The position numbers and the translations under genes are program-made. A stretch of DNA of 64,000 bases from Tetracentron sinense (taxonomy: Eukaryota; Streptophyta; Magnoliopsida; Trochodendrales; Trochodendraceae): NCBI GenBank assembly GCA_015143295.1, contig CM026560.1:8062501-8126500 (forward strand), written 5' to 3'. The notes below the pieces were generated by a model, which did not search any database, was not told where the DNA came from, and saw only the letters and a list, made by a program, of their open reading frames with translations. This document shows positions 2 through 48,719 of this stretch, piece after piece; positions within the stretch are counted from its first letter, which is position 1; every line of letters begins with the position of its first letter.

Positions 2-688
2 TCAGGCAAGGATGTTGATCAAACTTCTTACAGAAGCATGATTGGTAGTTTGCTCTACCTAACTGCTACTAGACCAGACATTGCCTTTAGTGTTGGAGCA
101 TGTGCTCGCTATCAAGCAAGCCCAAAAGAGTCTCACTTACTTGCAGTCAAGCGTATCATTAGATATGTAAGTGGAACTCCATCATTTGGCCTCTGGTATT
201 CTTTTGATACCAATGCCACAATAGTTGGATATTCCGATGCCGACTGGGCTGGAAATGCTGATGATAGGAAGAGCACCTCCAGAGGGTGTTTCTATATTGG
301 AAACTGCTTAGTTGCTTGGCTTAGCAAAAAGCAGAATTCAATTTCATTGTCCACTGCCGAAGCTGAGTACATAGCAGCTGGCAGTTGTTGTACTCAACTT
401 CTGTGGATGAAGCAGATGTTGCATGATTACGGGATTGAACAAGGCACTATGACTATGTATTGTGATAATTCAAGTGCTATCAATATTTCCAAAAATCCCA
501 TTCAACATTCTCGCACAAAACACCTTGACATTAGGCATCACTTCATTCGTGATTTAGTTGAGCAAAATGTTGTGTGTATTGAGTATGTCCAAACAGAGAA
601 ACAATATGCAGATATTCTCACAAAACCCTTAGATTCCCTTAGGTTTGAATTCCTTAGGAAATCCATTGGTTTGTGCGGAGTTGAGTGA
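2..688 (+). CDS. Ty1/copia pol, 3' end (end of RT and RNase H), partial
   Basis: The frame is open from base 2, so the protein continues upstream of the window; the first ATG at 38 is internal. The start of the visible part (YRSMIGSLLYLTATRPDIAF) is the conserved end of copia reverse transcriptase. RNase H follows, with acidic catalytic residues in SDADWAG, STAEAEY and YCDNSSAI, and the usual copia tail (HLDIRHHFIRD, then YADILTKPL). RNase H degrades the RNA strand during reverse transcription in the particle. No stop or frameshift is seen up to TGA at 686-688. An env-like ORF and a polypurine tract follow on the same strand, which fits the SIRE/Maximus lineage. The superfamily is certain and the lineage is inferred from context. 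Confidence 0.93.
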   Translation, partial: SGKDVDQTSYRSMIGSLLYLTATRPDIAFSVGACARYQASPKESHLLAVKRIIRYVSGTPSFGLWYSFDTNATIVGYSDADWAGNADDRKSTSRGCFYIGNCLVAWLSKKQNSISLSTAEAEYIAAGSCCTQLLWMKQMLHDYGIEQGTMTMYCDNSSAINISKNPIQHSRTKHLDIRHHFIRDLVEQNVVCIEYVQTEKQYADILTKPLDSLRFEFLRKSIGLCGVE

Positions 689-1824: not shown

Positions 1825-1896
1825 AAATTTTCCAGACCACCGATCGCTCGGTGTTAATGACCGATCGATCGGTCTTTCGTGAACAGGGTTATAAAA
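1825..1896 (+). promoter_or_regulatory. Internal promoter-like module upstream of env-like ORF
   Basis: Seen: a partial copy of the LTR box (AAAATTTTCCAGA), then two 14-bp palindromes, ACCGATCGCTCGGT at 1839-1852 and ACCGATCGATCGGT at 1860-1873 (starts 21 bp apart), then TTATAAAA at 1889-1896. The same palindromes precede the TATA box in this element's own LTR (4322-4505, TATA at 4551). Inference: a truncated U3 copy that could drive a subgenomic env-like transcript. AAAAAG/GTAATC near 2021 could be a 5' splice site in the leader, which is less sure. Confidence 0.5.
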
Positions 1897-2041
1897 CCCT
1901 CATTTCTCAGTTTCCTATTATTTTGTTCTCCGAACTCTAGAGCGATCCCTCGGTCCCTTCTTCTCCAAATCTCTCTTACGTTCATCTCTTTCTACTCCAA
2001 GGGTCTCCTAGCATCTAAAAAGGTAATCTTTAATCATTTTC

Positions 2042-3373
2042 TTGATTTTGGTTTACTTTTCACATCTAGGGCATCAAAAATTCATCATGATTTTCTCATT
2101 CTCCTTAGTTATTCTTGTATTCCTCATGTCCGGTGTCTCTAAACGCTGGAGATTGGTCCTCAATAACCAAGAGGACCCTCTTGAGGAAGAGGAACACAAT
2201 GAGCCATACTCTTTCACTCCAATAGGACATGGGATTTCAATAGGGGATCGACCAATCCGTAGAATGGTAGATTCTACTACTGAAAATCGTCAAAAGTCTT
2301 TGGCAGATAAAACCCGGAAACAAAAGGGAAAAGCTAGTTCATCTTCAAATGTTCTATTGGGTCCCTTCATTGGCCCTAGTGCTGCTCGGCTTTATAGTGA
2401 GTATTTTAGTAAAAAGGGTGTTATGGTTGAAAGGAGCATTAGAATTTCAGATTTTGGTGATTATTACTTTTCTAAGCTCATTACCGATCGTAACTGGGAA
2501 GGTCTTCTCACTTTATCCGGTCCTGCTCCTATTCAGTTAGTCCAAGAATTTTACTCAAATTTCTCTGAAATCAACTCTAAAACCTGGTCTTTTAAATCTC
2601 AATCTTTAGAACAATCAGTTTTGATAAATCCAAATGTCATTGCTAAATTTCTTGGTTGTCCTCGAGTTCCAAATGCCTATTATCCTTATAAATACAAGAA
2701 AGATGAGGATAAAGAATCTATGAACAATGTAGTCACCTTTCTTTGTGGTGCTCCTACACTTTGGGTTGGTTCCTTAATAGAAGTAACAAAACTCACTAGG
2801 GATGCAAGACTTGTAAACCTAGTAATGAGTGCCAATATCCACCCAAAGGTTCATACTGCAGACCTTAGGGAAGATAGAGCTCGATTTTTATTCAGTCTCC
2901 TTCATGGACATGATATTAACCTTGCAGCACACATAATTGATTTGATGATTCAAGCCCATCAAACTCAAACTGTGGTCGGAGCTCTTCCTTTTGGATCCCT
3001 GATTACTAAACTCCTTGGTTCTCAAGGGGTTATTGCTCCTCCTGGTGTTCCTACCCGTAATCCGAAAGGTCCAATCAACAAAAAGACCATCGCTCAGAGT
3101 TTCTCTTATGCTTCAGTTCGAGATATTGAGGAGGAAGCTGATTTTGGTACCGGATCCTCTCATCCACCTCCGGCCACGATTGAAGATCTAGCTAGAATGA
3201 TGAGAGAGATGCAGATGGATCTCTCGACGCATATTTCATCCCACCAGGAGTTCACCACAGAGATCTGTGGAAGACTTGGATCACTCGATGCAGCAGTGCT
3301 GGGAGTACAGAGAGATGTTCGTGATTATAGAGCTTATTATGAGTCTCATCTCACTTCAGATGATGAGGAGTGA
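2042..3373 (+). CDS. Env-like / plant transposon-type protein of SIRE-like copia element
   Basis: Open frame of 443 codons. The body resembles the 'putative plant transposon protein' family found as the extra (env-like) ORF of SIRE and Athila elements: a basic, Ser-rich stretch (KQKGKASSSS), a central globular region with VLINPNVIAKFLGCPR, a conserved MSANIHPKVHTADLREDRA segment, an ALPFGSLITKLL motif, and a C-terminal region rich in Met, Gln and Glu that may be coiled coil, ending in an acidic tail. The first 30 residues are hydrophobic (FSFSLVILVFLM) and could be a signal or membrane segment. However, ATG at 2126 (MSGVSKRW) would give a soluble protein, so the start is undecided. Function is unknown for the family. 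It lies 1.35 kb after pol and is preceded by its own TATA-like module. Confidence 0.7.
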   Translation: MILVYFSHLGHQKFIMIFSFSLVILVFLMSGVSKRWRLVLNNQEDPLEEEEHNEPYSFTPIGHGISIGDRPIRRMVDSTTENRQKSLADKTRKQKGKASSSSNVLLGPFIGPSAARLYSEYFSKKGVMVERSIRISDFGDYYFSKLITDRNWEGLLTLSGPAPIQLVQEFYSNFSEINSKTWSFKSQSLEQSVLINPNVIAKFLGCPRVPNAYYPYKYKKDEDKESMNNVVTFLCGAPTLWVGSLIEVTKLTRDARLVNLVMSANIHPKVHTADLREDRARFLFSLLHGHDINLAAHIIDLMIQAHQTQTVVGALPFGSLITKLLGSQGVIAPPGVPTRNPKGPINKKTIAQSFSYASVRDIEEEADFGTGSSHPPPATIEDLARMMREMQMDLSTHISSHQEFTTEICGRLGSLDAAVLGVQRDVRDYRAYYESHLTSDDEE

Positions 3374-4023: not shown

Positions 4024-4321
4024 TGTAATTCCAGAATTAGGTGTTGGCAAATTCCGTGATCTTTAGATAGGTCATAAGAGTTGTGTCTTGTTCAACTTGT
4101 CGGAAGAGTTAAAGTTTCAAGAAGACTGAAGATATTGAAAAAAATGCTTCTACTCCGGATTTAGACAGGTAATGGACTTAGAGACCCCTACCTAGGTTGG
4201 ATTTGACTTAGATAACTCTAAACATACCTAGGAGAATAGTTTTAAGCCTACCAAAGAGGTTTGATCTATTTTGAATCAAACAAAAACAAAAGAAAAATGT
4301 TTAGGCTGAAATTCTGTCTCA

Positions 4322-4505
4322 ACCGATCGCTCGGTGTTGCGACCGATCGATCGGTGGCCTACCGAGCGATCGGTGGCTATCGACTGGTCAAAAACTTTGT
4401 ATGGGGTATTTTTCCAGAGAGACTATTTTTAACCGATCTCTCGGTGAAAGTAGCGATCGATCGGTTTTGGACCGAGCGATCGGTAATAAGCACTGATCGA
4501 TCGGT
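4322..4505 (+). promoter_or_regulatory. Palindrome module (3 + box + 4) in copia U3
   Basis: Seven 14-mers start at 4322, 4342, 4361, 4432, 4452, 4471 and 4492 (e.g. ACCGATCGATCGGT). The box GTATGGGGTATTTTTCC with CAGAGAG lies at 4399-4421 in the 71-bp step. A plain TATA box follows 46 bp downstream. The start-to-start steps (20, 19, 71, 20, 19, 21) equal those in the gypsy LTR at 5014-5197. Confidence 0.85.
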
Positions 4506-4550
4506 CCTCGTAAACATAATTTTATTTTTTTTGGACTCTTTTCTAAACCC

Positions 4551-4558
4551 TATATAAA
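4551..4558 (+). promoter_or_regulatory. TATA box of SIRE-type LTR
   Basis: CCCTATATAAACAAC lies just downstream of the palindrome module, in the position expected for the U3 promoter. Confidence 0.65.
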
Positions 4559-5013
4559 CAACTTTTTGGAGACCTAATTCATATCTTTGTTTATTTTTGA
4601 AAGAGTAGAGGTCTGAGAAACCCTTCTAGGGCTTTTTCCATTGTTCTTCATAGATCTTTAGTGATCCTCCTTTTTCAATCATCCTAGAGAATGCAAGTAT
4701 AGATCTATTCGTTTGATCTTGCATTGTGTGATCTCAGATCTGTATGAGATCCCTCTAGGGTTTGAAGCTTTCTAAATTGATTCACAACCCTACACTTCGT
4801 GTGTAGAGCCCCAGACCTTTTCACATTTAATGCATGACACTTTCGTTACCATTTTGCCTTTAAAGAGGTATAATTAATAAATAAGAAAGAAATTGGAAAT
4901 TTTGAAACGTTAGAAATGTTCATTTTCGAAGTACGAACCCAATGCAAGTTGAATCGTCAAAATCGGATGAACGAGTCAAAAGTTATGGCCAAAACAGTTT
5001 GGACCTGCAGACC

Positions 5014-5197
5014 ACCGATCGCTCGGTCCATGGAGCGATCGATCGGTCCAAAACCGATCGCTCGGAGGCTATCGACTGGTCGAGATTTTACTATGGGGAA
5101 ATTTTCCAGAGAGTGAAATTTCAACCGATCGCTCGGTTATGAAACCGATCGATCGGTAGGCGACCGATCGATCGGTCATTAACACCGATCGCTCGGT
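5014..5197 (+). promoter_or_regulatory. Palindrome module (3 + box + 4), 5' LTR of A
   Basis: 14-mers start at 5014, 5034, 5053, 5124, 5144, 5163 and 5184 (ACCGATCGCTCGGT / ACCGATCGATCGGT, two with one changed end). The box CTATGGGGAAATTTTCC with AGAGAG lies at 5091-5113. Confidence 0.9.
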
Positions 5198-6214
5198 ACT
5201 CGCGTTTTTGCAGAAAATTTAGTAAGGGTGTTTGGTCTTTTGGGCGTTTTCACTCATGCCTTAAAGGCTTTGCCCGATCATTTGAGGGTTCATACACAAC
5301 CCTTAGAGCCTTTTGAGAGATAGAGAGAAAGGAGAAGGTTTTCCTAAACCTAGGGTTTCCATTTTGAAGAGAAATCAAAGGGGTTTGAGACCCTAGATCA
5401 TCCTCAAGTCTATTTTCTCCAAGTCTCGGCTCAAGCTCGTGTGGGGCACTCTCCTCAAGCTAGGGCAGCAACTCACGGTCGTTTTGGAAAGGGGGATTTC
5501 TTCCTCACTTGATCAAGGTCGGTGCTTTTTACTACCCTCCTAGTTATAGCCTCTCCTTTCCTTATTTCTTCTTGTTTTCCTTCATATATGTATATATATA
5601 TTATGAGATGGGTGGTATGTATGGTAAATGGAGATGGATGTTGGCGAATGGATGCCGTGTGGATGATGTAATGAAAGAATGGGGAAGGGCATTGTACTAA
5701 TAATAAACATACAAGTGTGATGTGAGTATAACCCACCTAGAAAAGCATGTTGTAGGGTTAATAAATAATGAATGTACCATGTTTGATGAAATGCCAAGGT
5801 GAATAAAATGAATGATAAATTAAGAAAATGCATGTTTAAGGTTTATGGAAATTGCTAGGGTTATGATAGTGTGATTGTTCGCTTTCCCTAAATGATATCA
5901 ATATTAAATTGCCCAAATCATTGATGTTATGTGTTATGAATTACTCAAATGCCATATTTAATTCCAAATGCAAGTATGCACACGACCTCACGAGCACGCA
6001 TACATGACATGATTTACCGAGGTTTTCAAGAATGGGATTTAGAGGTGGGGCATATCGTATGATATGTTTTGCCTCGCTTTTGGCAAGGACAAGACAATCA
6101 TGCATTTTCATAAGAAGGGTCTCCCTTCCCTCGCAAGTGCATACATAACATAAGGAGGGCCTCCCTCCCCTCGCAAGTACATCTCACAAGTGAAAGGACA
6201 TGACATGAGCATTT

Positions 6215-6455
6215 AGGAAGAAGGGTCTCCCTTCCCTCACAAGTAGTTTACTTTTCCAAGCAAGCACGACAAGACATGGCATGACAAGCATAATCATTCT
6301 AGGAAGAAGGGTCTCCCTTCCCTCACAAGTAGTTTACTTTTCCAAGCAAGCACGACAAGACATGGCATGACAAGCATAATCATTCTAGGAAGAAGGGTCT
6401 CCCTTCCCTCACAAGTAGTTTACTTTCCAAGCAAGCATGACATGACATGACACGC
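6215..6455 (+). repeat. 86-bp minisatellite in 5' LTR of A (about 3 units)
   Basis: Units start at 6215, 6301 and 6387 (AGGAAGAAGGGTCTCCCTTC...). They are preceded by two shorter related units with GGGTCTCCCTTCCCTCGCAA and GGGCCTCCCTCCCCTCGCAA. GAAGGGTCTCCCTTC is itself a near-palindrome. Confidence 0.9.
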
Positions 6456-6692
6456 ATGATATGACAAGATAAGACAAACATGACAAGTTTCAAGCACGGA
6501 AATGGTTTTTCCAATCAAGTCAAGTGCACGATGTTTTCAAGGGTTTTATCAGTCTTTCTGAATGCAAGCATGAATACCAATTGCCTTACTTCCTTGTTTG
6601 ATATAAATTGTTCCTGTTCTATATATGCAACTTGCTTCCTACTTTATTTATGCTATCTGTATACTATGACTGTTGGTTAGTATTTAGTACCC

Positions 6693-6713
6693 GCTGAGTA
6701 TTCCATGCTCAGC
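6693..6713 (+). promoter_or_regulatory. Conserved LTR stem-loop, element A
   Basis: CTGAGTATTCCATGCTCAG, flanked by G and C, can fold into a short hairpin. The same motif is in every gypsy LTR of this window, 10-30 nt before the PWVEEEY reading frame. Confidence 0.6.
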
Positions 6714-6723
6714 CGTACTTCTT

Positions 6724-6843
6724 ATGTCGGCAGGTTCTGAGGGAGCTGCTGCTCCATTTGATGTTTGTGCTCCTGGTCCATGGGTGGAGGAGGAGTACGT
6801 CGAGGAACCTTTGGAGGAACCTCCCGTAGAGGGTTATCAGTAG
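6724..6843 (+). CDS. Conserved short ORF in LTR (PWVEEEY peptide), 39 aa
   Basis: ATG at 6724, TAG at 6841. The peptide starts MSAGSEGAAAPFDVC, has the core PWVEEEY at residues 19-25 and an acidic Pro-rich tail (VEEPLEEPPVEGYQ). Related frames occur in LTRs B, C, D, F, H and I, where the codons differ but the core amino acids stay the same (TGGGTGGAGGAGGAGTAC here, TGGGTTGAAGAAGAATAC in I). No family is known to me. Some copies lack the ATG and keep only the stretch from GGCAG/GT, which looks like a 3' splice junction, so it may be a downstream exon rather than an independent gene. Conservation could also reflect an RNA constraint. Confidence 0.45.
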   Translation: MSAGSEGAAAPFDVCAPGPWVEEEYVEEPLEEPPVEGYQ

Positions 6844-7147
6844 GTGGTGTTAGATTTCGAGTGGATTAGTTGTGGGTGAGCATGAGTGATTATATCCATG
6901 TATTTTGGCGGGCATGTCCGCACTTTCTTTGTTTTGTTTTCTTTTGTATTAACTTGGACCATGTGTATATACTTAGAGGTTTGTTAGACTTCCGCTGTGT
7001 TTTATAGTTATGCTTCCGCTGTTATCCTCTATTGTATATGTTCCGTGGGTTTTGCAGGTTGGTTCGTCAAGCAAGTCATGTAAGTCATGATTAAGTCGTC
7101 CAAGATTCACTCTAACTCCTAGGGTGGGTTTTGGGTCGCGACAGAAG

Positions 7148-7503: not shown

Positions 7504-8752
7504 ATGAGACGGAACACACGGGGTCGTGGGCCACATACCAGAGCTTCCTCTTCTTCACGGGATGAGGATGAGCAGCCGGACCTCTCTCAGGTCTTAGGCT
7601 CTATTGCTGAGACACTCGCCATCCTGGCGGCTCGGCAAACTATACCGGCATCAGCGGCACCTACTCCACCGCCCGCAGCTCCAGTACATCGTACAGCTGG
7701 AGTTGAGGCATTCAGGAGATTGAGGCCTCCATCCTTCCGCGGGAGTGTGGACCCTCTTACTGCGGAGGCTTGGATCCTCCAGGTTGAGAAGATATTTGCG
7801 GTGCTCTCTCCTACAGAGGAAGAGAAAGTGGCATGGGCAGTTTTTATGCTAGAGGGCGAAGCCCACCATTGGTGGTTGTCCGCATTGAGGACACGGGACT
7901 TGACCATGCAAGGTCAACCGTGGACTTGGGAGGAGTTTAAGGACACATTCTATAAGAAGTATTTCCCGGTTGGAGCTCGGGAAAGGAAAGAAAGAGAATT
8001 CATCAACCTTGAGCAAGGTTCGATGTCTGTGGCCGCTTATGAGGCCAAGTTCTCGGAGCTATCACACTTCGCGACACATATGATTGCCACCGAGGCAATG
8101 AAGGCGAGGAGGTTTGAGCAAGGGCTCAAGGATGTCATCATGGAAAAAGTGTCGGTCTTCAGGCACGCCACTTACGCCGAAGTAGTGGATAAAGCCTTGT
8201 TGGTTGAGACCAATTCAGAGACCGTGTCCAAGAAGAGAGAATTGGCGAGAGGCCAATCTAGTGGTTCGGTACCTTTAGAGAGGCGGGCCAGGACTGGTCC
8301 TTATCAGTATACATGGCCAGCACCACAGATGAGGCCGACTTATGCGCCTCCAGCACCCCGGCAGTACGTGCCACAGGCACCTCGACCTCAGGCTCTTCCA
8401 GCCCCACGGCCAGTTACACCTCAGGCAGCGAGGTATACAACACCTTCGGTCCCTCCAGCCTACACATATGAGGTCTGCACTTCATGCGGCAAAAGGCATC
8501 AGGCAGGAGATTGCCGAAGAGCATCTGGTGGATGTTATCATTGCGGTCGCCAGGGCCACATGATCAGGGATTGCCCTAGCCGGCATTTACCAGGCCAGTC
8601 TCAGGGTAGTAGGCCCCCGACACGCCCAGCAGGATCATACCAGGCGTCATCTCAGACTACCCGGTCTACACCTCAGTCTCGCCAGGCAAACCAGGGGTGA
8701 GTTTTTGCCTTGACAGAGGGTGATGCACTTGCATCTGATGATGTGGTGCAAG
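7504..8752 (+). pseudogene. gag: gag of element A (stop at 8698)
   Basis: ATG at 7504 (MRRNTRGRG), as in C and D. The retrotransposon Gag domain runs from about residue 95 to 220 (AEAWILQVEKIF ... FYKKYFPVGARERKEREF ... AYEAKFSELSHFA). A Pro-rich linker and two Cys-His knuckles follow: CTSCGKRHQAGDC (spacing 2-3-4) and the canonical CYHCGRQGHMIRDC. The frame stops at TGA 8698-8700 where D has CGA-type Arg (NQG-R-VFA), and then reads on in frame to the conserved VVQ codons before the intron at 8753. The stop fits a single C-to-T change. TCTCAG/GA just before the ATG resembles a 3' splice site and is shared with C and D. Confidence 0.9.
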
Positions 8753-8898
8753 GTACGCAGTTAGAGTTAATTTCTTTATTCGTGATTATTATGTTATGCT
8801 CTATTCTCTGCGTACGTACTTGGCATGTTCTATATGTATATATACCTACATGTATACGCTGTTGATGCTTGGATTAACTCCACTAGTTAAAATTTCAG
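8753..8898 (+). other. GT-AG intron-like segment between gag and pol, element A (146 bp)
   Basis: Boundary GTGCAAG/GTACGCAG on the left and AAATTTCAG/GAACC on the right. Removal joins VVQ to GTLLVNE in frame (1249 + 3326 nt, a multiple of 3). The segment is AT-rich with in-frame stops. Equivalent segments in C (144 bp) and D (138 bp) have the same boundaries. Confidence 0.7.
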
Positions 8899-11800
8899 GA
8901 ACCCTACTAGTCAATGAGTATTTGGCTCGAGTGTTGATTGATACCGGGTCTACTCATTCGTTTGTCTCGCCGAGTTTTTCAGAAGGCTTTTCTGTGGAGC
9001 CTAGTCAGCTAAAACCGGAGTTAGCCATTTCGACTCCGCTCGGCAAAACAGTATTGGCAGATAAAGTGTATAGAAATAGTGCGGTCCAAGTTGGAAGCCA
9101 CGAGTTGGCAGTTGATCTCATCGTCCTTGGATTCCAAGACTTTGATGTTATATTGGGAATGGATTGGTTAGCAACACATCATGGGCATGTAGCTTGCTTT
9201 GAGAAGATGGTACTCTTCAAGCCGGTAGAAGGAAAACCATTTCACTTTTGAGGGTTGAGAAGTAGAGACATTGCCCGCTTTGCGGCGTTGAGCTTAGCTA
9301 ACCCTGAAGCAAAGGACTCATCGACTATTCCGGTTGTGAGTGAATTCCTGGATGTATTTCCAGAGGAGTTGCCGGGATTGCCTCTAGATAGGGAGATTGA
9401 GTTTGTGATCGAGCTTGCACCAGGCACAGCTCCTGTTTTCAGAGCTCCATATAGAATGGCCCCTGTTGAACTCAAGGAGTTGAAGACTCAGTTGGAGGAA
9501 CTGCAAGGCCTTGGTTTCATTCGACCAAGTGTCTCACCATGGGGTGCCCCAGTGTTGTTTGTTAAGAAGAAAGATGGCTCGATGCGGATGTGTGTCAATT
9601 ACCGGCAATTGAACAAAGTCACTATAAAGAATAGGTATCCCTTGCCTAGGATTGATGACTTGTTCGATCAGTTGAAGGGAGCGAGATTTTTCTCAAAGAT
9701 AGATCTTCGATCAGGTTATCACCAGTTGAAGATTAAGGCGGAAGATGTTCCCAAAACTGCTTTCAGGACTCGGTATGGACACTACGAGTTCTTGGTGATG
9801 CCTTTTGGACTCACGAACGCGCCGGCAGCCTTTATGGATTTGATGAACCGGGTGTTCCGGCCATATCTTGATAGGTGCGTGATTGTGTTTGTTGATGACA
9901 TTTTGGTCTATTCCCAGACACGGGAAGATCACACACGCGACCTATGCCTTGCTTTAGAAACGCTAAGAGAGCACAAGCTATACGCCAAACTTAGCAAGTG
10001 TGAGTTTTGGTTGGAAGAGGTGGCATTCCTAGGCCACGTTGTATCAGCGGAAGGCATTTCGGTGGATCCAAAGAAGATAGAGGCAGTTATGAGTTGGGCG
10101 AGGCCCAAGAGTGTCACGGAGATACGCAGCTTTCTTGGGTTGGCAGGCTACTATAGGAGATTCGTAGAGGGTTTCTCTAGCCTTGCAGCGCTGCTCACTT
10201 ACCTGACAAGGAAGAACGCCAAGTTTGTATGGAGTGATAAGTGCGAGATCAGTTTCACGGAACTGAAGAAGAGGCTTACTACAGCCCCTGTCCTTACGGT
10301 GCCATCCGGACCTTATGGGTATGAGGTGTATAGTGATGCCTCACACGTTGGACTTGGGTGTGTACTCATGCAGCACAAAAAATTCATTGCCTATGCATCA
10401 AGGCAGTTGAAGGAGCATGAGAAGAACTATCCCACGCACGACTTGGAGCTTGCGGCGGTCGTGTTTGCACTTAAGATTTGGCGTCATTACCTTTATGGGG
10501 TGGAGTTCTATGTGTTCACTGATCACAAGAGTCTCAAGTACCTCTTTTCCCAAAAGGAGCTGAATCTAAGGCAACGGCGTTGGATGGAATTTTTGAAGGA
10601 TTATGATTGTACCATTCAATACCACCCGGGTAAAGCAAATGTAGTGGCTGATGCTTTGAGTAGAAGACCTCCGGGGTTATTAGCATGCATGTTAGTGCAA
10701 GAATGGAAGCTACTTGAAGACTTGGCAAATCTGGACATTAGTGTGAATGACTCTGTCCGTAGTCCTATCTTGGCAAATGTCACGGTTCGGCCATACATTA
10801 TAGATTTGATCCAAGAATACCAAGCCACGGATGCTGAATTGTTGGCTTATCGGGACAAGGAAGTTGCTAAAGGTAGTGAGGACTTCTCTCTTACTAGCTG
10901 AGGTGCTATCACATTCAAGGGAAGGCTGTGTGTTCCAGCCAATGCAAATCTTCGGAGGGAGATTATGGATGAAGCCCACCGGGCAAAGTACACTGTGCAT
11001 CCAGGGGGTACGAAGATGTACCGGAACCTCAAGAGTCACTTTTGGTGGCGAAATATGAAGAGGGAGGTTGCGGAATATGTAGCTCGGTGCTTGGTGTGCC
11101 AACAGGTGAAAGCAGAACACATGCGGCCCGCAGGTCTATTACAGTCCCTTCCGATTCCCGAGTGGAAATGGGAGAACATATCCATGGATTTCATAGTTGG
11201 CTTGCCAAAGACGGCAAGGGGTTCAGATGCGATATGGGTAGTAGTGGATCGTTTGACGAAGTCCGCTCACTTCTTGCCTTACCGAACTACTTTCAACTCT
11301 AGTCAGTTAGCCGCTTTGTACATCAAGGAAGTGGTGAGGTTACACGGAGTGCCCGTTAGTATTGTGTCAGATCGGGATCCAAGATTCACGTCACGATTCT
11401 GGAAAAGCTTCTAGGAGGCTATGGGTTCCCGACTTGATTTCAGCACTGCTTTTCATCCACAGACGGATGGACAAACCGAGAGGGTGAACCAAGTAATAGA
11501 AGATATGCTTCGGGCTTGCATGCTGGATTTCAAAGGCAGTTGGGAAGAGCACTTGCCTTTAGTGGAGTTCGCCTACAACAATAGCTATCAGGCGAGTATC
11601 CAAATGGCTCCGTTCGAGGCTTTGTATGGGCGAAGCTGCAGGTCTCCTCTCTACTGGGATGAGGTAGGAGAAAGAAAAGTACTTGGTCCGGAGTTGATTG
11701 AGCAAACTGCTAGTATAGTCAAGATCATCCGGGATCGGTTGAAAGCCGCTCAAGATCGCCAAAAGAGCTATGCAGACACGCGCCGCAGGGACTTGGAATT

Positions 11801-12224
11801 CCAGGTAGGGGATCAAGTTTTTGTGAAAGTATCTCCTAGCAAAGGGATTATGAGATTCGGCAAGAGAGGCAAGCTTAGTCCTCGTTATGTTGGACCGTTT
11901 GAGATTATCACGCGGGTTGGTGAAGTTGCTTATCGAGTAGCTCTTCCACCTCACATGGCCGCGGTTCACAACGTTTTCCACGTGTCTATGCTTCGGAAGT
12001 ACATTGCGGACCCTTCGCATGTACTAGAATTGGAACCATTGGAAATTCGAGAAGATCTCACATTGGTTGAGAAGCCGATTCACATATTGGATCGGAGAGA
12101 TCAAGTACTTCGCAACAAGACAATCCCTTTGGTTCTTGTGCAATGGCAACACCATGCTCAGGAAGAAGCTACATGGGAGCGTGAAGCCGAAGTCAAAGCG
12201 AAGTACCCGGAATTGTTTGAATGA
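8899..12224 (+). pseudogene. pol: pol of element A: protease-RT-RNase H-integrase-chromodomain, three stops
   Basis: One reading frame holds all domains: aspartic protease ([15 protein letters not shown]), RT ([34 protein letters not shown]), RNase H ([31 protein letters not shown]), integrase with HHCC finger and D,D,E core ([30 protein letters not shown]), a GPY/F-like region, and a C-terminal chromodomain-like tail (LVQWQHHAQEEATWE). Stops interrupt at 9249 (TGA), 10899 (TGA) and 11412 (TAG), with no frameshift. By comparison with D, the first and third replace CGN/CAG-type codons and the second is compatible with that. Domain order and tail match Tekay/Del chromoviruses. It normally makes and integrates the cDNA. 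Confidence 0.95.
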
Positions 12225-12326: not shown

Positions 12327-12538
12327 TGTAGAGCCCCGGACCTTTTCACATTTAATGCATGACACTTTCGTTGCCATTTTGCCTTTAAAGAGGTATAATT
12401 AATAAATAAGGAAGAAATTGGAACTTTTGAAACGTCAGAAATGTTCATTTTCGAAGTACGAACCCAATGCAAGTTGAATCGTCAAAATCGGATGAACGAG
12501 TCAAAAGTTATGGCCAAAACAGTTTGGACCTGCAGACC

Positions 12539-12722
12539 ACCGATCGCTCGGTCCATGGAGCGATCGATCGGTCCAAAACCGATCGCTCGGAGGCTATCGA
12601 CTGGTCGAGATTTTACTATGGGGAAATTTTCCAGAGAGTGAAATTTCAACCGATCGCTCGGTTATGAAACCGATCGATCGGTAGGCGACCGATCGATCGG
12701 TCATTAACACCGATCGCTCGGT
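12539..12722 (+). promoter_or_regulatory. Palindrome module (3 + box + 4), 3' LTR of A
   Basis: Same as 5014-5197, with no change in the seven 14-mers. Confidence 0.9.
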
Positions 12723-13739
12723 ACTCGCGTTTTTGCAGAAAATTTAGTAAGGGTGTTTGGTCTTTTGGGCGTTTTCACTCATGCCTTAAAGGCTTTGCCC
12801 GATCATTTGAGGGTTCATACACAACCCTTAGAGCCTTTTGAGAGATAGAGAGAAAGGAGAAGGTTTTCCTAAACCTAGGGTTTCCATTTTGAAGAGAAAT
12901 CAAAGGGGTTTGAGACCCTAGATCATCCTCAAGTCTATTTTCTCCAAGTCTCGGCTCAAGCTCGTGTGGGGCACTCTCCTCAAGCTAGGGCAGCAACTCA
13001 CGGTCGTTTTGGAAAGGGGGATTTCTTCCTCACTTGATCAAGGTCGGTGCTTTTTACTACCCTCCTAGTTATAGCCTCTCCTTTCCTTATTTCTTCTTGT
13101 TTTCCTTCATATATGTATATATATATTATGAGATGGGTGGTATGTATGGTAAATGGAGATGGATGTTGGCGAATGGATGCCGTGTGGATGATGTAATGAA
13201 AGAATGGGGAAGGGCATTGTACTAATAATAAACATACAAGTGTGATGTGAGTATAACCCACCTAGAAAAGCATGTTGTAGGGTTAATAAATAATGAATGT
13301 ACCATGTTTGATGAAATGCCAAGGTGAATAAAATGAATGATAAATTAAGAAAATGCATGTTTAAGGTTTATGGAAATTGCTAGGGTTATGATAGTGTGAT
13401 TGTTCGCTTTCCCTAAATGATATCAATATTAAATTGCCCAAATCATTGATGTTATGTGTTATGAATTACTCAAATGCCATATTTAATTCCAAATGCAAGT
13501 ATGCACACGACCTCACGAGCACGCATACATGACATGATTTACCGAGGTTTTCAAGAATGGGATTTAGAGGTGGGGCATATCGTATGATATGTTTTGCCTC
13601 GCTTTTGGCAAGGACAAGACAATCATGCATTTTCATAAGAAGGGTCTCCCTTCCCTCGCAAGTGCATACATAACATAAGGAGGGCCTCCCTCCCCTCGCA
13701 AGTACATCTCACAAGTGAAAGGACATGACATGAGCATTT

Positions 13740-13980
13740 AGGAAGAAGGGTCTCCCTTCCCTCACAAGTAGTTTACTTTTCCAAGCAAGCACGACAAGAC
13801 ATGGCATGACAAGCATAATCATTCTAGGAAGAAGGGTCTCCCTTCCCTCACAAGTAGTTTACTTTTCCAAGCAAGCACGACAAAACATGGCATGACAAGC
13901 ATAATCATTCTAGGAAGAAGGGTCTCCCTTCCCTCACAAGTAGTTTACTTTCCAAGCAAGCATGACATGGCATGACACGC
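13740..13980 (+). repeat. 86-bp minisatellite in 3' LTR of A
   Basis: Three units as in the 5' LTR, with two base differences (ACAAAACATGG, CATGACATGGCATG). Confidence 0.9.
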
Positions 13981-14248
13981 ATGATATGACAAGATAAGAC
14001 AAACATGACAAGTTTCAAGCACGGAAATGGTATTTCCAATCAAGTCAAGTGCACGATGTTTTCAAGGGTTTTATCAGTCTTTCTGAATGCAAGCATGAAT
14101 ACCAATTGCCTTACTTCCTTGTTTGATATAAATTGTTCCTGTTCTATATATGCAACTTGCTTCCTACTTTATTTATGCTATCTGTATACTATGACTGTTG
14201 GTTAGTATTTAGTACCCGCTGAGTATTCCATGCTCAGCCGTACTTCTT

Positions 14249-14368
14249 ATGTCGGCAGGTTCTGAGGGAGCTGCTGCTCCATTTGATGTTTGTGCTCCTG
14301 GTCCATGGGTGGAGGAGGAGTACGTCGAGGAACCTTTGGAGGAACCTCCCGTAGAGGGTTATCAGTAG
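14249..14368 (+). CDS. Conserved short ORF in 3' LTR of A (39 aa)
   Basis: Same reading frame as 6724-6843, with no difference seen in it. Confidence 0.4.
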   Translation: MSAGSEGAAAPFDVCAPGPWVEEEYVEEPLEEPPVEGYQ

Positions 14369-14673
14369 GTGGTGTTAGATTCCGAGTGGATTAGCTGTGG
14401 GTGAGCATGAGTGATTATATCCATGTATTTTGGCGGGCATGTCCGCACTTTCTTTGTTTTGTTTTCTTTTGTATTAACTTGGACCATGTGTATATACTTA
14501 GAGGTTTGTTAGACTTCCGCTGTGTTTTATAGTTATGCTTCCGCTGTTATCCTCTATTGTATATGTTCCGTGGGTTTTGCAGGTTGGTTCGTCAAGCAAG
14601 TCATGTAAGTCATGATTAAGTCGTCCAAGATTCACTCTAACTCCTAGGGTGGGTTTTGGGTCGCGACATCGTG

Positions 14674-15083: not shown

Positions 15084-16639
15084 TAGAGATCATTGATCAG
15101 AGTAATTTCACTTGATTAGTAAGAAACTAATAAAATCCTTGTCTAACAAGGAATCTTTAATTAGTAACTAACTAATGAAATCCCTAACAATTAGGGAATC
15201 TTTAATTAGCAACTAACTAACTAACTAACCTTATCCAATAAGGTGTTAATTAATTAGAAACTAATTAAAATAATAACAATTATTATTCCTTCTTGAAGTG
15301 AGCGTCTCACCCTAGGTGGGTCCCACTCCATATGCCCCTAGGGTTCCAAACCCTATTAGGTCACTTTATGATTCTTTTAATAAAATCCCCAATGAGTCCT
15401 ACCCATTTGGTTTTTCACATCCAATGTGATTCCACCTTTTGGAGTTACTATACTATATAGTGATTACTTAGAGAAATTAATTAATTTAATTAATGATTAA
15501 ATTAAATACTTTAAGAAGGTCCTTGTGTGTGGGATCTAAAGGGATCTCCTACTTCCGGTTGTGGGACCAAGTACTCAACCTTTTGGTTAAAGCATTGTTA
15601 CTAGGCAACACCTTTCCTAAAACTCCATTAGGATCATAGAATGTTATCTAAGTCCCTGGACTTCCACTAATCACAATTAATGTCCATTAACACAATGTGA
15701 TTAACCTCCAGAAATTAGAGAATTGTAAGTACCATCTCACAATATATTTAGAAATAAATCCTTCCACATTCTGATATCACTTGTAAGCTTCTAGGATTGG
15801 AACAACTCCACTGTCTAGTCCCTAGCTTATGAATAGAACCCTTTCTCATGATTACTTTTTCATTGAACTGAACCTCCAAAACACTTTTGAAGAAACATTA
15901 GAAAAGAACTGACATATATATTTATATATACTTTTCCATATTATAAATATCAACTTCGATAAAGACCATTTTATCTAAAAGCACCAGTACTGGATTTAGC
16001 AGTTCAATTGAACAAGTATCACCTTGATATCATTATCTCCAATTAATGAGTTGTAAATTCCTTATTGAGTATTTACACACTTCTCCAAACATTGTATACA
16101 TGACCCAATGTACCCGGAGTTAGCCCTGTGTATTGGACATTGCCGATTGGCACATCAAAGCCATATAAACAGATGTCTAAGAAGATGTTAACCTCTCAGG
16201 TCTAAGGACAATTTGTCAAATGGATAACCCTAATACAATCTGACAGTGTATTCCATAGGGTATCCACTAGTGACCCCATTCAGTATTATGTACTTGCTAC
16301 ATATACTCACATGTTAGTCAAGAGTCACCACTCTCTGTGAATGAGATTCATCACACTATCTCATAGAACTACACATGTGTAAGCCATGATGAAGTACGGC
16401 GCCCAACCAGTACTTTAGAGGCTTCGAATAATATTAGGTTTACAAGGAACCTGAAAATCATATCTCCTCGCAACCTTTGCATGATTTTCCTATAATGTTA
16501 CCTTTGGAACTTTATGTCATCAGCAAATGAGACAGTAATTTATATAAATACCCTTTATAGTTGGTTGTGTGAATATGATGCTTGTCTAATCAACATAGAA
16601 AAGTCTCTTATTGGCTTTCAAGGGTATATATGTCCAACA
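15084..16639 (-). mobile_element. Copia LTR E1, minus strand, truncated
   Basis: Similar along its length to E2 (19748-21130) and E3 (32384-34422). Its 5' end on the minus strand is TGTTGGACATATA at 16639, an exact LTR end. The other end is cut by the SIRE-type LTR. No ORF. Confidence 0.75.
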
Positions 16640-16749
16640 ACGTCTACATGAGGCTCCTCCGTAGGTTCCTCAACGTACTCCTCCTCCACCCATTGGCCAG
16701 GAGCACAAATGTCAAATGGAGCTGCAGCTCCCTCAATACCTGTCAACAT
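16640..16749 (-). other. Short LTR ORF in F, cut by E1
   Basis: ATG at 16749 (minus). MLTGIEGAAAPFDIC is followed by QWVEEEYVEEP, closely similar to the peptide in A although the surrounding DNA has diverged. The frame is lost at the junction with E1. Confidence 0.45.
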
Positions 16750-18064: not shown

Positions 18065-18252
18065 TACGATCGATCGTAACACGTCTACGATCGATCGTAA
18101 TTATTCTACGATCGGTCATAAGTTTTCACGATCGATTGTAAACGTTACCGAGATTTTTTTCAATTCCTGAGATTCTACGATCGATCGTAAATTTCTACGA
18201 TCGATCATAGCTCACCTACAATCGTTCGTAGGGTCTGTATGATCGTTCATAA
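18065..18252 (-). promoter_or_regulatory. Palindrome array in LTR F, TAC..GTA type (4 + 4)
   Basis: 14-mers start at 18065, 18086, 18107, 18127, 18176, 18196, 18217 and 18239. Three are exactly TACGATCGATCGTA and the rest have one to four changes. Steps are 20-22 bp within each block of four and 49 bp between blocks. It is upstream of the minus-strand TATA box. Confidence 0.85.
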
Positions 18253-21825: not shown

Positions 21826-22086
21826 TGCGATCGATCGCAAGTCAGGTGCGATCGATCGCATGCAAGCAAAATAGGTCCCAAACTCTCGAGGTCATATGCG
21901 ATAGATGGATCCCTAGGTGCGATAGATCCCAGGCATCTGCGATCGATCACAAGAATGTGCGATCGATCGCATGCAGGGGGAAATCAGACCAGAAATGTTC
22001 GGGTTCATGTGCGATAGATCGCATCTAGGTACGATCGATCGCAAGGACTTGCAATCGATCGTAGATAAGTGTGTGATCGATCGCAT
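21826..22086 (+). promoter_or_regulatory. Palindrome array in LTR B, TGC..GCA type (2 + 4 + 4)
   Basis: 14-mers start at 21826, 21847, 21897, 21918, 21938, 21958, 22010, 22030, 22050 and 22073. Three are exactly TGCGATCGATCGCA. Steps within blocks are 20-23 bp and between blocks about 50 bp. Confidence 0.85.
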
Positions 22087-23869: not shown

Positions 23870-24065
23870 CAAATGGTCGAGCAAGCCCTTATGGGTAAGG
23901 GTTTAACGCTTAAAAGACGAAAAAGCCCTTACTGAAATTTCTGCAAAAACGCAAAGACCGAGCGATCGGTGGTTATGACCGATTGATCAGTTGCCTACCG
24001 AGCGATCGGTGTTCTGACTGAGCGACCGATCAAAAGCAAGCTCTTTGGAAAAATTCCCCATACAA
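23870..24065 (-). mobile_element. LTR fragment joined to the pol of element C
   Basis: Minus-strand piece with four 14-mers (starts 23957, 23978, 23997, 24017) and the box (24041-24063). It matches the reverse complement of LTR H near 48600-48810 (e.g. ACCCTTACCCATAAGGG) better than C's own 5' LTR. RNase H sequence begins directly after the box. Confidence 0.7.
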
Positions 24066-27305: not shown

Positions 27306-29134
27306 TGTCGCGACCCAAAATACCCCTAGGAGTTAGGGATACTTTGACTCGTGACCGCCATATCATACCTCCCATATGATACATAAAGCACGCATAGCAA
27401 CTTGTCAAAGTACACAGACATACATAGCGGAAATGATTTAAACATATAGCAGAAGCAGAAAATATAATTAAACACTCCTATTCCTTGGTCCAAGTGTGAA
27501 CCAACAAAATACACCCCCATATCCATATCCAAAATGTGGAGTGGACAAGTCCCAATCTCACTTAACAAATGTCATATGTTTCTAAATGTGGTAATCAATA
27601 GAAGTCGAAGTCATGATGCCTATCTAGTGAGCCATCGTCCTGGTGGTGGTCTATAGAAGGCTCTGGGTCGAAGTATTCTTCCTCTATCCAAGGCTTCGTA
27701 CCATACAAATCAAAGGAACCCGAGAACCTGCCGATGATAACAAATATCGTCTGAGCGTGGAATACTCAGTGTATACATACTACTAGCAATGAAGTAATAA
27801 TATTATAGAGCATGCGAATCATAGAGACTAAAATCCTTAAAATACATTTAAGCGTGGAAACCGTGAAACAGTACATATAATGAAGTCCGAAACCAAAACC
27901 GTGTGAGTCATGTGATAATCATAGCCTTGTGAGTTCTTTGAGTTAAATTCATAGAGTTCCTTAGAGTCATTTATGATCCATAGAGACATAGAGCAATACC
28001 GTAGAGCATAACCATAGAGATCTTAGAGCAATTACATTTGTGATCCTTAGAGCTTGTAAACCGATCTTAGACATTATCATAGAGTTCTTATGAGTTTAAC
28101 ATGATCCTTACAGCTTGTGAACCGATCTTAGACAATATCATGGAGTTTCTTAAAAATCATCATGTGAGTCCTTTACTAAAAATCCTTTCTAGAACTTTAA
28201 GAAATCCATGGAAAAACCCCGGTTCAGGCGAGACATGAGAACATATGCGAGTAATCACATATTTAAACATCAAAAGCCCTTAGAGGCATTAAACTAAACA
28301 CATAGAGTGCATAATAGTGATAGCTTACATCCAAGTATAAAAACAACATTCACACACCATATCCAATCAAGCTTTATAGTATAGAATAATAAGAAGAACA
28401 TCATATGGTAACTGGTATCATCACAAGATTGGTAGTAGAATGTATCTACCTTGGTGAAATCAATGACTTTGATTCCAAGGGCTTGGAACAAGTGAGCACT
28501 TCGAGTTCTTTGTTAAGAAACACTAAAGAAGGGAAGATTTGATCTTCTCTTCAAGCTTGAGCAACTCCCTTAGCTTTCTCCTTCTTCTTCCTCTAAAAAC
28601 CCTCTCAAAATAAGCCTCAAGGGTTTCTGAAACCCTAAGGCACGAACTGAGCCTTTTATAGCCAAAGGGTGTTGGTTAAAGACTTAAAAACCTTAATGAA
28701 GAAAATCTGCGTAAAATCGATCAATCGGTGGTCAAGACCGAGTGATCGGTGGCTTACTGAGTGATCAGTGGTTTCGACAGAGAGATTGGTTGAAAACACC
28801 CTCTCTGACATTTTTCCCCATACAAAATAGCTAACCAGTCGACAGCTACCGAGCAACCGGTAGATGACCGGTCGATCGGTGTTTATCATCGAGCGATCGG
28901 TACTCCTCTGTTTTGCTGCAAAGCCCTATTTCCACTACATGGACCTTCTCTAATCCAATTCTAATACCTTTTATGCTTAAAACACACTCCTTTAGGCCAT
29001 ATAGACCTATCCACACATGTACACCATATATCCCAACATTTTCATTAGCATAAACCCATTAATGTACAAGACTACCTTGAACACTTTTCACTCACTATTC
29101 ACTACTTAGTGAAGTGAAAGTTCGGGGTTCTACA
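27306..29134 (-). repeat. 5' LTR of element C, minus strand
   Basis: 1829 bp, TGTAGAACCCC...GGTCGCGACA on the minus strand. It has a decayed palindrome module, a TATA box (TATAAAA, 28654-28660), the hairpin AGGGTTTCTGAAACCCT (28620-28636), a region of short GATCCTTAGAGCTTGTGAAC-type repeats, the stem-loop (27751-27769) and a PWIEEEY frame ending at 27595. Its insertion site lies in the env-like gene J. Confidence 0.9.
28716..28901 (-). promoter_or_regulatory. Palindrome module in 5' LTR of C, decayed
   Basis: 14-mers start at 28716, 28737, 28756, 28777, 28848, 28867 and 28888; box at 28801-28823. The steps, including the 71-bp one, are kept although many cytosines have changed (e.g. ACTGAGTGATCAGT). 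Confidence 0.8.
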
Positions 29135-30704: not shown

Positions 30705-30889
30705 ACCGATCGATCGATGGTTTGGACCGAGCGATTGGTGTTGTACCAAGTGATCAATGGTTTCAATTGAGCGATTGGTTGGAAAACACCTCTCTGGAAT
30801 TTTTCCCCATATAAAATCTTTGACCAGTCGACAGCTACCGAGCGATCGCTAGATGACCAGTCGATCGGTGTTATCACGGAGCAATCAGT
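30705..30889 (-). promoter_or_regulatory. Palindrome module in LTR I, decayed
   Basis: 14-mers start at 30705, 30726, 30745, 30766, 30837, 30856 and 30876; box at 30790-30812. Spacing is preserved, sequence partly eroded. Confidence 0.8.
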
Positions 30890-38203: not shown

Positions 38204-38218
38204 GGCACGAACTCAGCC

Positions 38219-38282: not shown

Positions 38283-38467
38283 ACCGATCGATCGGTGCTA
38301 TGGACCGAGCGATCGGAGGCTTACCGATCGATCGGTGTTATGACCGAGAGATCGGTCAAAAACACACTCTCTGGAATTTTTCCCCATACAAAAAAGTTAA
38401 CCGTGCGATAGCCATCGAGCGATCGGTAGTGGACCGATCGATCGCAGGTAATGACCGAGCGATCGGT
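38283..38467 (-). promoter_or_regulatory. Palindrome module, 3' LTR of D
   Basis: 14-mers start at 38283, 38304, 38323, 38343, 38414, 38433 and 38454; box at 38367-38389. Read on the minus strand, it is 3 + box + 4 with steps 21, 19, 71, 20, 19, 21. Confidence 0.9.
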
Positions 38468-43830: not shown

Positions 43831-43834
43831 AGTC

Positions 43835-45698
43835 TGTCGCGACCCAAAATACCCCCTAGGAGTTAAGGGTAAGTTGACTCGTGACCGCCGTACCATACCT
43901 CCAGTATGATACATAAGGCACACGTGGAAACCTGTCAGAGTACCTGAACATACATAACGGAAACGAAATACAATGCACAGCGGAAAATAAAATACTAAAC
44001 ATAGCGGAAGCAAAATGAATACTCCTATAACTTGGCTCAAGTAAGAACCAACAAGTATACATGTGTGAGAAACCCAAAAGTGGAGTGGACAAACCCCACA
44101 CTCACATAACAAAATGACACAAGTTCTAAGTCGGTCGATCAACAGAAATCGAAGTCACGACTCCTATCTAAAGCACCATCATCATGATAGTGATCCATGG
44201 AAGGCTCCGGGTCACGGTACTCTTCCTCGACCCAAGGTTCTTCGCCACACAAATCGAATGGAACCCGAGCACCTGCCGATCATAACAATATCGACTGAGC
44301 ATGGAATACTCAGTGTATACAAACTAAGAACAATAAAGCGGTTAGGCATGGAGCATACAAGACATGGAGAATGAAATCCGAACAATCCTTAAAGCATGGA
44401 AACCGTGAAAACATATGTGAGATAATATTCGAAACCAAAACTGTAACCGTGTGAGTCAATCGATAATCATAGCCTTATGAGTTCTTGTGAGTTCATGGAG
44501 TTACTTAGAGTCATTATGATCCGTAGAGACATAGAGCATAGAGCAATACCGTAGAGCATTTCCATAGAGCATAACCTTAGAGATCTTAGAGCATTTCATT
44601 GTGATCCGTGGAGCTTGTGAGACGATCTTAGAGCATTATCATAGAGTTTTCTTGTGAGCATGGTATGATCCTTAGAGCTTATGAAACGATCTTAGAGAAA
44701 TCATAGAGTTACTTAGAATCATTCATTATTCGTCTTTTCGTGAAAACCTTTGTTTGCACCTTAAGAAATCCATGGAAACCATCGGTTCATGCGAGACATG
44801 CGAGCATATGCACTTAATAAGAGAAATCATCATATTTAAGCATAGAATCCCTTAGAGGTATTTTATCAAACACTTAGAGTGCATCATAATAGTAATCCTT
44901 CATCCAAGTATATAATCACACCTTTTCATACATAGAATCAATACATATAGATAGGGCATATATGAGAAGAATCATATTTATTAACTAGTAGGATTGCAAG
45001 ATTGTAGTAGAGTGTATCTACCTTAGAGGAATCAATGGGTTTGACTCCCAATGGCTGGAACAAGCAAGAACAGTGAGTTCTTGGTTGGAAATCACCAAGG
45101 GAAGTGGAAGAACCTTGATCTTCCACAAGCTTGATCAACAAGTAGCTCCTCTCCTTCTTCTCTCTCTCAAAATCTCCTAAGATAGGGCACAGAGGGTTTC
45201 TGAAACCCTAAGGCACGAACTCAGCCTATTTATAGGCAAGGGGTGGTGTTTAAAGTCTTAAACACCCTTAATGAAGAAAAACTGCGTATGACCGATCGAT
45301 CGGTGCTATGGACCGAGCGATCGGAGGCTTACCGATCGATCGGTGTTATGACCGAGAGATCGGTCAAAAACACACTCTCTGGAATTTTTCCCCATACAAA
45401 AAAGTTAACCGTGCGATAGCCATCGAGCGATCGGTAGTGGACCGATCGATCGCAGGTAATGACCGAGCGATCGGTGCTCTGTTATGTCTGGACTGTTTTG
45501 ACCATATCTTTTTACTCGCTCGTCGGATTTCGACGATTCAACTTGCGTTGGATCCGTCTTTCGAAAACGAACATTTCTGACGTTTCGGAATTTCCGATTT
45601 CTCCCTTATTTATTAATTAGACTACGAAAACTATGAAAACGGCCAATTAGCTATGAAGGTGCTATTCATTAAGGATGAAAAAAATCCGGGGTGCTACA
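43835..45698 (-). repeat. 5' LTR of element D
   Basis: 1864 bp, same length as the 3' LTR and identical in the stretches compared. Palindrome module 45291-45475, TATA 45227-45234, short PWVEEEY frame 44139-44279, stem-loop 44294-44314. Confidence 0.97.
45291..45475 (-). promoter_or_regulatory. Palindrome module, 5' LTR of D
   Basis: Copy of 38283-38467 at offset 7008, in the LTR expected to promote transcription of D. Confidence 0.9.
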
Positions 45699-48515: not shown

Positions 48516-48719
48516 ACCGATCGCTCGGTTCCAGTCAGCGATCTATCGCGTCCATCACCGAATCGATCGGTAGCTATCTGTCCGCACGTTCGAAATTTTT
48601 GTATGGGAAAATTTGCCAGAGAGTGAGTTTTTGACCGGTCTCTGATCAGGGGGATCGTCATAAACACCGATCGCTCGGTAGGCAACCGATCGATCGGTCA
48701 TAACCACCGATCGCTCGGT
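48516..48719 (+). promoter_or_regulatory. Palindrome module (3 + box + 4) in LTR H
   Basis: Copies at 48516, 48537, 48557, about 48634 (degenerate), 48666, 48685 and 48706; box at 48601-48623 (GTATGGGAAAATTTGCC). Slightly longer than in A because of small insertions. Confidence 0.8.

Follow-up and report, generated by a model that had tools for sequence, protein, structure and literature searches.

The window, that is, the whole stretch of 64,000 nucleotides of Tetracentron sinense DNA analyzed here, lies in a genome of 1.16 Gb and begins on the left with the 3′ portion of a SIRE-type Ty1/copia element. The positions of all features are given in Table 1. The 216 amino acids of copia pol inside the window matched by themselves no Pfam model at E 0.001; the frame read in another genomic locus with 1.5 kb more of upstream sequence (L039) matched RVT_2 at 3e-71. 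The copia LTR begins with TGTAATTCC at 4024, and the purine tract AAAGGGGGAGA precedes it. From this PPT-like tract and the extra ORF, we take the element to be a putative Sirevirus.

A chromovirus, element A, is nested in the copia LTR with the target duplication TCGTG on either side. Its Pfam matches come from the ORFs at 7504-8700, 9255-10901 and 11421-12224. A second chromovirus, H, occupies about 36823-45698 on the minus strand and possesses gag-pol and a chromodomain (Pfam). C, D and the stretches 23870-24065 and 48312-49034 are further LTRs or fragments that resemble A or H; the labels A, C, D and H were assigned to the elements from their positions. The parts by which a chromovirus is recognized (gag, RVT_1/RNase H, integrase and a C-terminal chromodomain) were all present in H by Pfam, with the chromodomain at 25.4 bits (cut-off 25.1) and the integrase core at 21.6, below the cut-off of 32.6. 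The chromodomain of A scored 24.4 bits, slightly below the Pfam cut-off. A and H each match RVT_1, a capsid model of Ty3 type and a chromodomain model, and both carry the module described below. We call A Tekay-like, a label taken over from the original prediction for this DNA. All lineage statements here concern one genome, and the names SIRE and Tekay rest on structure and on that earlier label.

Table 1. Elements, modules, arrays and promoter-like sequences in the window
Feature	Position	Strand	Basis
3′ end of copia pol frame (RT/RNase H part), SIRE-type element	38..688	+	RVT_2 match via longer locus L039
Pre-ORF dyad site 1, ACCGATCGCTCGGT	1839..1852	+	site scan
Pre-ORF dyad site 2, ACCGATCGATCGGT, 21 bp past site 1	1860..1873	+	site scan
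TATA-box-like sequence inside TTATAAAACCC, past the pre-ORF sites	1890..1895	+	sequence
Third, weaker pre-ORF site, AGCGATCCCTCGGT	1941..1954	+	site scan, SIRE loci
Extra ORF of SIRE-type element, PF20167 (putative plant transposon protein)	2087..3373	+	Pfam 6.7e-29 for 2042-3373; aligned with relatives
SIRE-type 3′ LTR, first part, after PPT-like AAAGGGGGAGA; split by element A, continues at 14674	4024..4801	+	sequence; TSD TCGTG
Module in copia LTR	4322..4505	+	sites 4322, 4342, 4361, then 4432, 4452, 4471, 4492
Central 57 bp between sites 3 and 4, holding GGCTATCGACTGGTC and box	4375..4431	+	44/57 vs A
Box TATGGGGTATTTTTCCAGAGAG	4400..4421	+	window and genome counts
TATA-box-like TATATA in copia LTR, 46th base past last site	4551..4556	+	pattern search
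Chromovirus element A, 5′ LTR	4802..7143	+	99.57% to 12327-14668; TSD TCGTG
Module in 5′ LTR of A	5014..5197	+	sites 5014, 5034, 5053, 5124, 5144, 5163, 5184
Element A gag-pol in several ORFs: gag, RT, RNase H, SH3-like, chromodomain slightly below cut-off	7504..12224	+	Pfam
Element A, 3′ LTR	12327..14668	+	LTR alignment
Module in 3′ LTR of A	12539..12722	+	site scan
Array in another gypsy-type LTR: eight sites, TAC..GTA-like arms, steps 21, 21, 20, 49, 20, 21, 21	18065..18251	-	site scan
Array in another gypsy-type LTR: ten sites, mostly TGC..GCA arms	21826..22085	+	site scan
Partial module (box and following sites), truncated gypsy LTR	23957..24062	-	site scan, alignment, box
Module in gypsy LTR C	28716..28901	-	site scan, alignment
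Module in gypsy LTR D	30705..30889	-	site scan, alignment, box
Module in one LTR of chromovirus H	38283..38467	-	site scan, alignment, box
Module in other LTR of H	45291..45475	-	site scan, alignment, box
Degenerate module, gypsy LTR fragment 48312-49034; layout less regular	48516..48719	+	site scan, alignment, box

Several other repeats were observed. A satellite of 179-bp units, ~80% alike, extends from 50738 to the window end at 64000, and a satellite-like fragment (48180-48313) adjoins the gypsy LTR at 48312. A tandem repeat of 64/129 bp, in 2.5 to 5 copies with 93-95% matches, lies at 49700-50021. Another repeat, without CGATCG, is present in three copies 85-90% alike (15122-16640, 19786-21461 and 32935-34754), and the few ORF pieces tried near it gave no Pfam family above the cut-off. 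The 31-36 kb region was considered as a second SIRE element and rejected: no Pfam family was above the cut-off in the pieces tried, and no perfect CpG-containing 10-bp palindrome is present.

The module is 184 bp long and consists of seven 14-bp dyad sites, which follow each other in steps of 20, 19, 71, 20, 19 and 21 in both the copia LTR and element A. The original prediction had given these coordinates and steps for the two LTRs, and all were exact. Its claim that H, C and D have the same layout within a base or two also held for these minus-strand modules. It had further described the sites as seven 14-bp palindromes. Seven sites are present, but many depart from perfect symmetry: one position of ACCGATCGCTCGGT is asymmetric, a few sites have more changes, and some sites of gypsy D have more than three mismatches. 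The window contains 87 copies of CGATCG, where 8.0 would be expected, and 8 copies of the box with up to three mismatches, where 0.02 would be expected. The observed/expected ratio of CpG in the module is 1.82 for copia and 1.92 for A; in the flanks it is 0.34-0.35 for copia, and 1.03 before and 0.50 after the module for A.

The copia module and the A module are homologous. Their alignment gave 76% identity over 189 bp. By part, the sites are identical at 89 of 98 positions and the central 57 bp at 44 of 57; for the latter, 20,000 shuffles gave a mean of 15.4 (sd 3.3) and a maximum of 28. The short spacers are identical at 7 of 29 positions, which is chance (shuffle mean 7.1). Since the spacers match at chance only, the evidence for homology is the central 57 bp, and the idea of homology over the whole 184 bp was weakened. 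By local alignment with shuffles, the LTR flanks are also at chance level (upstream 19 against a mean of 18.7, downstream 20 against 18.2). Sites, order, spacing and the central stretch are common to both LTRs, and the small spacers are not. This pattern fits an old common origin, after which the spacers could vary in letters but not in length. Chance likeness was rejected on the CGATCG excess, the box counts, the shuffles and the genome controls. Because gypsy A and C can hardly be aligned even with each other in their LTR flanks, absent flank homology is no proof that the module moved alone. Dating of the exchange by the module edges was dropped.

In the copia LTR, TATATA starts at base 46 past the last site, and in C, D and H TATAAA starts at base 56-58. 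For A the patterns used gave CTTAAA alone, at base 63, and for the 48516 module and the 21826 array they detected no TATA. The copia element also carries a second set of sites in front of its extra ORF. Both pre-ORF sites were present in 18 of the 20 SIRE 3′ regions sampled, and in 17 of these 18 loci TTATAAAAC, which holds the TATA, was found. Across the genome, 759 copies of the core of pre-ORF site 2 plus its 3′ flank were counted (control 0), and the 100 matches listed all have GGT on the 3′ arm. Since the set of sites stands before a TATA in three settings (copia U3, gypsy U3 and copia pre-ORF), the module is best read, from its placement, as a promoter element. The extra ORF was examined as a candidate binding factor; database search gave one weak relative, and the predicted fold had a mean pLDDT of 33.6.

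To follow the module through the copia family, the genome was searched with a 291-base query from the LTR (4026-4316), and the 40 best matches among 1,674 candidates were scored. Thirty LTR loci were taken, the window included; some are LTR pairs of one element. The first site lies 296 or 297 bases past the query start in 29 of the 30. All seven sites (with up to three mismatches) were detected in 20 loci and four to six in 9. The one locus with no sites (L034) lacks them because a different sequence starts there. In a protein search with the copia RNase H end, the best 150 of 20,114 candidates were scored, all at least 92% identical, so that this sample consists of near relatives of a single query. 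From these, 20 further 3′ regions were taken from the top and the very bottom of the list. Sixteen carry the module end to end, three of them (L048, L050 and L055) minus one unit each, and two carry a partial module (L047, and L063, which is cut by an H-like gypsy LTR). The copia LTR was not found within the sampled stretch in L049 and L056.

The SIRE copies were sorted into two subfamilies by LTR similarity, and L034, L049, L056 and L063 were excluded from the comparison of conservation. In the second subfamily (10 copies), identity to the window copy was 92.7% for the sites, 89.1% for the central stretch, 78.6% for the spacers, 85.9% for the upstream LTR, 85.6% for the next 55 bp and 91.0% for the following 241 bp. 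Between the subfamilies, the sites are kept better than the nearest sequence and hardly better than the stretch farther downstream. Within the first subfamily (35 copies) there was no difference, with the sites at 97.5% and the remainder at 97.2-98.6%.

Some irregular copies were also observed. A loss of one unit, in which sites 2 and 3 are fused, recurs in L011, L014, L024, L025, L029, L048 and L055. In L066 (C16:29000900-29007900), the LTR belongs to one subfamily and the extra ORF resembles, over most of its length, that of the other; this ORF is 91% identical to the window ORF versus 78-81% for the relatives of its LTR, which suggests recombination between SIRE subfamilies. Insertions were seen at or within the rows of sites: just before site 1 in L034, after site 3 in L063 (the H-like gypsy LTR) and after the first pre-ORF site in L056 (a sequence beginning CACTACG). 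These three cases may reflect a target preference.

We also analyzed the gypsy side and the whole genome. A 13-mer of the central stretch has 6,206 exact copies (control 8), and the first 8 of these places (contig C1) are all gypsy-type LTRs. The genome-wide search proposed with the original prediction was run with the 22-base box, three positions being free, and gave 8,615 matches versus 0 for the reversed control; both totals cover all holding elements together. Two LTR copies from the family of A have a module 98.4% identical to that of A, set in LTR sequence that is 90% identical before it and 86% after it.

A maximum-likelihood tree of the module, likewise proposed earlier, was built from 28 rows: 12 copia (4 and 8 by subfamily) and 16 gypsy (5 from the window and 11 from other loci). 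Most near-identical copia copies, L007, incomplete modules and arrays with other arms were excluded. Copia and gypsy fall apart in one split, a single branch separating the 12 from the 16 with a support of 100/100. Four of the gypsy rows are nested copies within SIRE loci, and their LTR flanks are gypsy too. The split remained at 100/100 when L049, L059 and L061, whose gypsy label came initially from the module alone, were removed. One clean branch means that there was no repeated swapping within the sample, and that one transfer, or a shared third source, suffices.

Mean identity of the module is 91.1% within copia (n = 12), 80.3% within gypsy (65.9-98.4%, n = 16) and 72.9% between copia and gypsy (65.9-78.8%). 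Compared with gypsy A, the copia modules average 76.5%, and gypsy C and D are at 70.1% and 68.5%; C and D are only 68% identical to copia. The step between the superfamilies is larger than the average step among gypsy modules, yet inside the gypsy range. Thus, descent from the common ancestor of copia and gypsy is hard to reconcile with these values. They suggest a single transfer, or uptake by both lineages from one donor, roughly as deep as the older splits within the gypsy family. Diversity would favour the direction from gypsy to copia, as the gypsy modules are more varied and gypsy LTRs hold other arm types in the same slot. We do not claim this direction because the copia sample consists of near relatives of one query.

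These other arm types were found in two further gypsy-type LTRs of the window. The LTR block upstream of the 18065-18251 array is 81% identical to that of A over 123 bp; for the 21826-22085 array, whose steps are 21, 50, 21, 20, 20, 52, 20, 20 and 22, the value is 84% over 118 bp. Both arrays occupy the slot of the module and keep the CGATCGATCG core. Genome-wide, pairs of CGATCGATCG cores 19-22 bp apart number 14,177 (control 0), many with other arms. Among 50 distinct places of such pairs listed, all on contig C1 and scored for the inner arms only, GGT and ACC were found in 19; the remaining inner arms were GCC, GGC, TGC, TAC, GAC and mixed. Close CGATCGATCG core pairs with several arm types are possibly a family of related promoter arrays.

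Based on these results, we consider it likely that the module is a promoter element of U3 (an enhancer) with a single origin, which passed once between copia and chromoviruses and was kept by a shared factor; its function, the factor and the mechanism are what we infer. The enhancer would be the U3 row itself, whose dyad-symmetric sites follow each other at about two helical turns around a fixed central box, slightly upstream of the TATA. A trans-acting factor, encoded by the host or by an element, would bind the row on one face of the DNA and so lead to transcription. The copia and gypsy modules of this genome would have one origin. The module would have crossed once, in either direction, between the SIRE-type copia lineage and the Tekay-like chromovirus lineage, most likely through a template switch while retrotransposon RNA was being copied or through recombination of nested copies at the DNA level. 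Both lineages would then have kept it since one factor serves both. Counted against this explanation are the mean identity between copia and gypsy modules (72.9%), which is below that within gypsy (80.3%), the nearly equal conservation between subfamilies of the sites (92.7%) and of the copia LTR farther 3′ (91.0%), and the sites being kept no better than the flanks within one SIRE subfamily. The missing TATA, by the patterns used, of the 48516 module and the 21826 array, and A having only CTTAAA, were also counted against it.

The original prediction had argued for a common origin, and this is supported by the central homology, by the presence of the module in nearly all copia LTR copies sampled and by the one split of the tree. 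Its proposal that the module was exchanged between the superfamilies or held in place by a shared factor stands in part: the common origin is kept, direct exchange is not told apart from uptake by both lineages from a third element, which the module tree would allow equally well, and the factor is one that we infer.

In such an uptake, both lineages would have taken the module independently from a donor such as a non-autonomous element, a host promoter or a retrotransposon of another family. The clean split fits two uptakes from one donor equally well, and the 14,177 close CGATCGATCG core pairs, many with other arms, mean that other holders of related arrays exist. However, no third holder was seen among the first 8 of the 6,206 places of the 13-mer (contig C1), which are all gypsy-type LTRs, and we regard a third source as rather unlikely. 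The case named against the original prediction was an artefact, namely that a piece of gypsy had landed in this single copia LTR at 4322-4505 and that the SIRE relatives lack the module. The same LTR indeed contains element A, 296 bp farther on, and gypsy insertions into SIRE LTRs do occur (L063). Nevertheless, the module was present at the same offset in 29 of the 30 copia LTR copies, and in the tree the 12 copia modules grouped separately from the 16 gypsy ones. Thus, the inserted fragment was rejected, and its probability is practically nil.

Under convergence, the two superfamilies would have evolved their rows of sites separately, in response to a single host factor, with the helical pitch setting the spacing. 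The unlike short spacers (7/29, chance), the better conservation of sites than of spacers between SIRE subfamilies and the similar 20-22 bp steps in gypsy LTRs with other arms would all be expected then. In contrast, the central 57 bp are mostly non-palindromic and have 44 matches in the same place and orientation, for which an independent origin is very unlikely; convergence thus appears largely refuted by the central homology, and we hold it to be improbable. We find it just as improbable that the palindromes of the 3′ U3 act as RNA, with hairpins that give rise to small RNAs, a mechanism proposed for the Sireviruses of maize. The RNA of the copia module folds with z = -7.2 against dinucleotide shuffles, and the maize palindrome clusters draw small RNAs (cited in PMC10760457). 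The z value is no separate evidence because any set of mutually complementary palindromes folds well. The fixed spacing of two turns, the box and the pre-ORF copy near a TATA fit DNA binding better, and maize Ty3 elements generally have no obvious structure peak, according to PMC10760457.

Palindromic arrays of this kind can be compared with known systems. In VANDAL transposons, short repeated family-specific motifs are read by the VANC anti-silencing proteins. The likeness is that motifs vary by family there and arms vary by array type around a constant core here; VANDALs are DNA transposons with a known factor (VANC), whereas the present arrays belong to LTR elements with a postulated one. 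A 2016 study of maize Sireviruses reportedly found palindromes in the regulatory part of the LTR with strong predicted RNA structure, and the arrays described here are alike in both respects. In maize, Ty3 elements generally lack such a peak (PMC10760457). Recombination of LTRs in retrotransposon families, by exchange between copies during transposition, is described, for example, in PMC5668417; it takes place within one family there and across superfamilies here.

The closest relatives are the repeated motifs (RM) of Sireviruses. According to PMC2829016 (Bousios et al. 2010), RM are near-identical palindromes bordering CpG islands, clustered in U3 upstream of a conserved TATA and again upstream of ENV in 13 elements, with a sequence that differs by element. 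The original prediction had held that no such module was described. This was wrong for the copia half, which resembles RM in its palindrome clusters in U3 before the TATA. RM were termed Sirevirus-specific since classic retrotransposons had no motif; gypsy elements lay outside that comparison because the data set was Ty1/copia (same text). In the present genome, chromovirus LTRs carry a homologous array that agrees in order, steps and central box, and this is the new part.

When the marks of RM were compared with the copia element, it belongs to Ty1/copia by RVT_2 at 3e-71. Its sites cluster in the upper half of the LTR before the TATA, starting ~298 bp past 4024 in an LTR whose 3′ end is not fixed. 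Two sites precede the PF20167 ORF, a candidate for the ENV gene, in 18 of 20 loci. RM number at least eight per element; here, seven sites lie in the 3′ LTR, and the ORF is preceded by two more, or by three if the weak one is counted. None of the 13 RM consensus motifs in Table 3 of PMC2829016 equals ACCGATCGATCGGT; 12 have the CGG-CCG signature, and the one exception, Tnd-1, is ACAATCGATTGT. ACCGATCGATCGGT likewise departs from the CGG-CCG core, having CCG..CGG in its arms, in reverse order. Thus, the copia half fits the RM kind except for that core, its putative Sirevirus membership resting on structure. The gypsy half (A and H carry the module) is outside the RM definition because its elements are chromoviruses. 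A module shared by copia and gypsy LTRs was not found in the literature searched by titles and abstract openings, with subscription journals mostly outside, and searches of IMG/VR, little informative for plants, gave 0 matches for the box and for two site pairs.

The control regions of LTRs are usually seen as evolving inside each family, and palindromic arrays have been presented as a hallmark of Sireviruses. That homologous arrays recur thousands of times in one genome, in LTRs of both superfamilies, would mean that promoter parts can cross between superfamilies and persist. Such a crossing would explain how unrelated elements answer the same signal. Since the factor should bind two otherwise unrelated LTRs, what reads the Sirevirus palindromes becomes testable.

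A wider idea, which we put forward tentatively and rather doubt, is that the arrays form a genome-wide recognition code for retrotransposon promoters. Rows of the constant CGATCGATCG core, about two helical turns apart, would carry arms (ACC..GGT, GCC..GGC, GGC..GCC, TAC..GTA or TGC..GCA) read by a matching family of factors, and SIRE-type copia and one chromovirus branch would share one letter since one group captured the promoter row of the other. If so, one superfamily would exploit an activator that evolved with the other. Arrays with GCC arms gave 0 matches in chromovirus LTRs, in a search of one spacing range (50-80 bases) run with no positive control. Finally, the gap of 71 in the module equals 21 + 50, and GGCTATCGACTGGTC may therefore be a worn eighth site; a worn form common to copia and gypsy A would add a sign of common origin.
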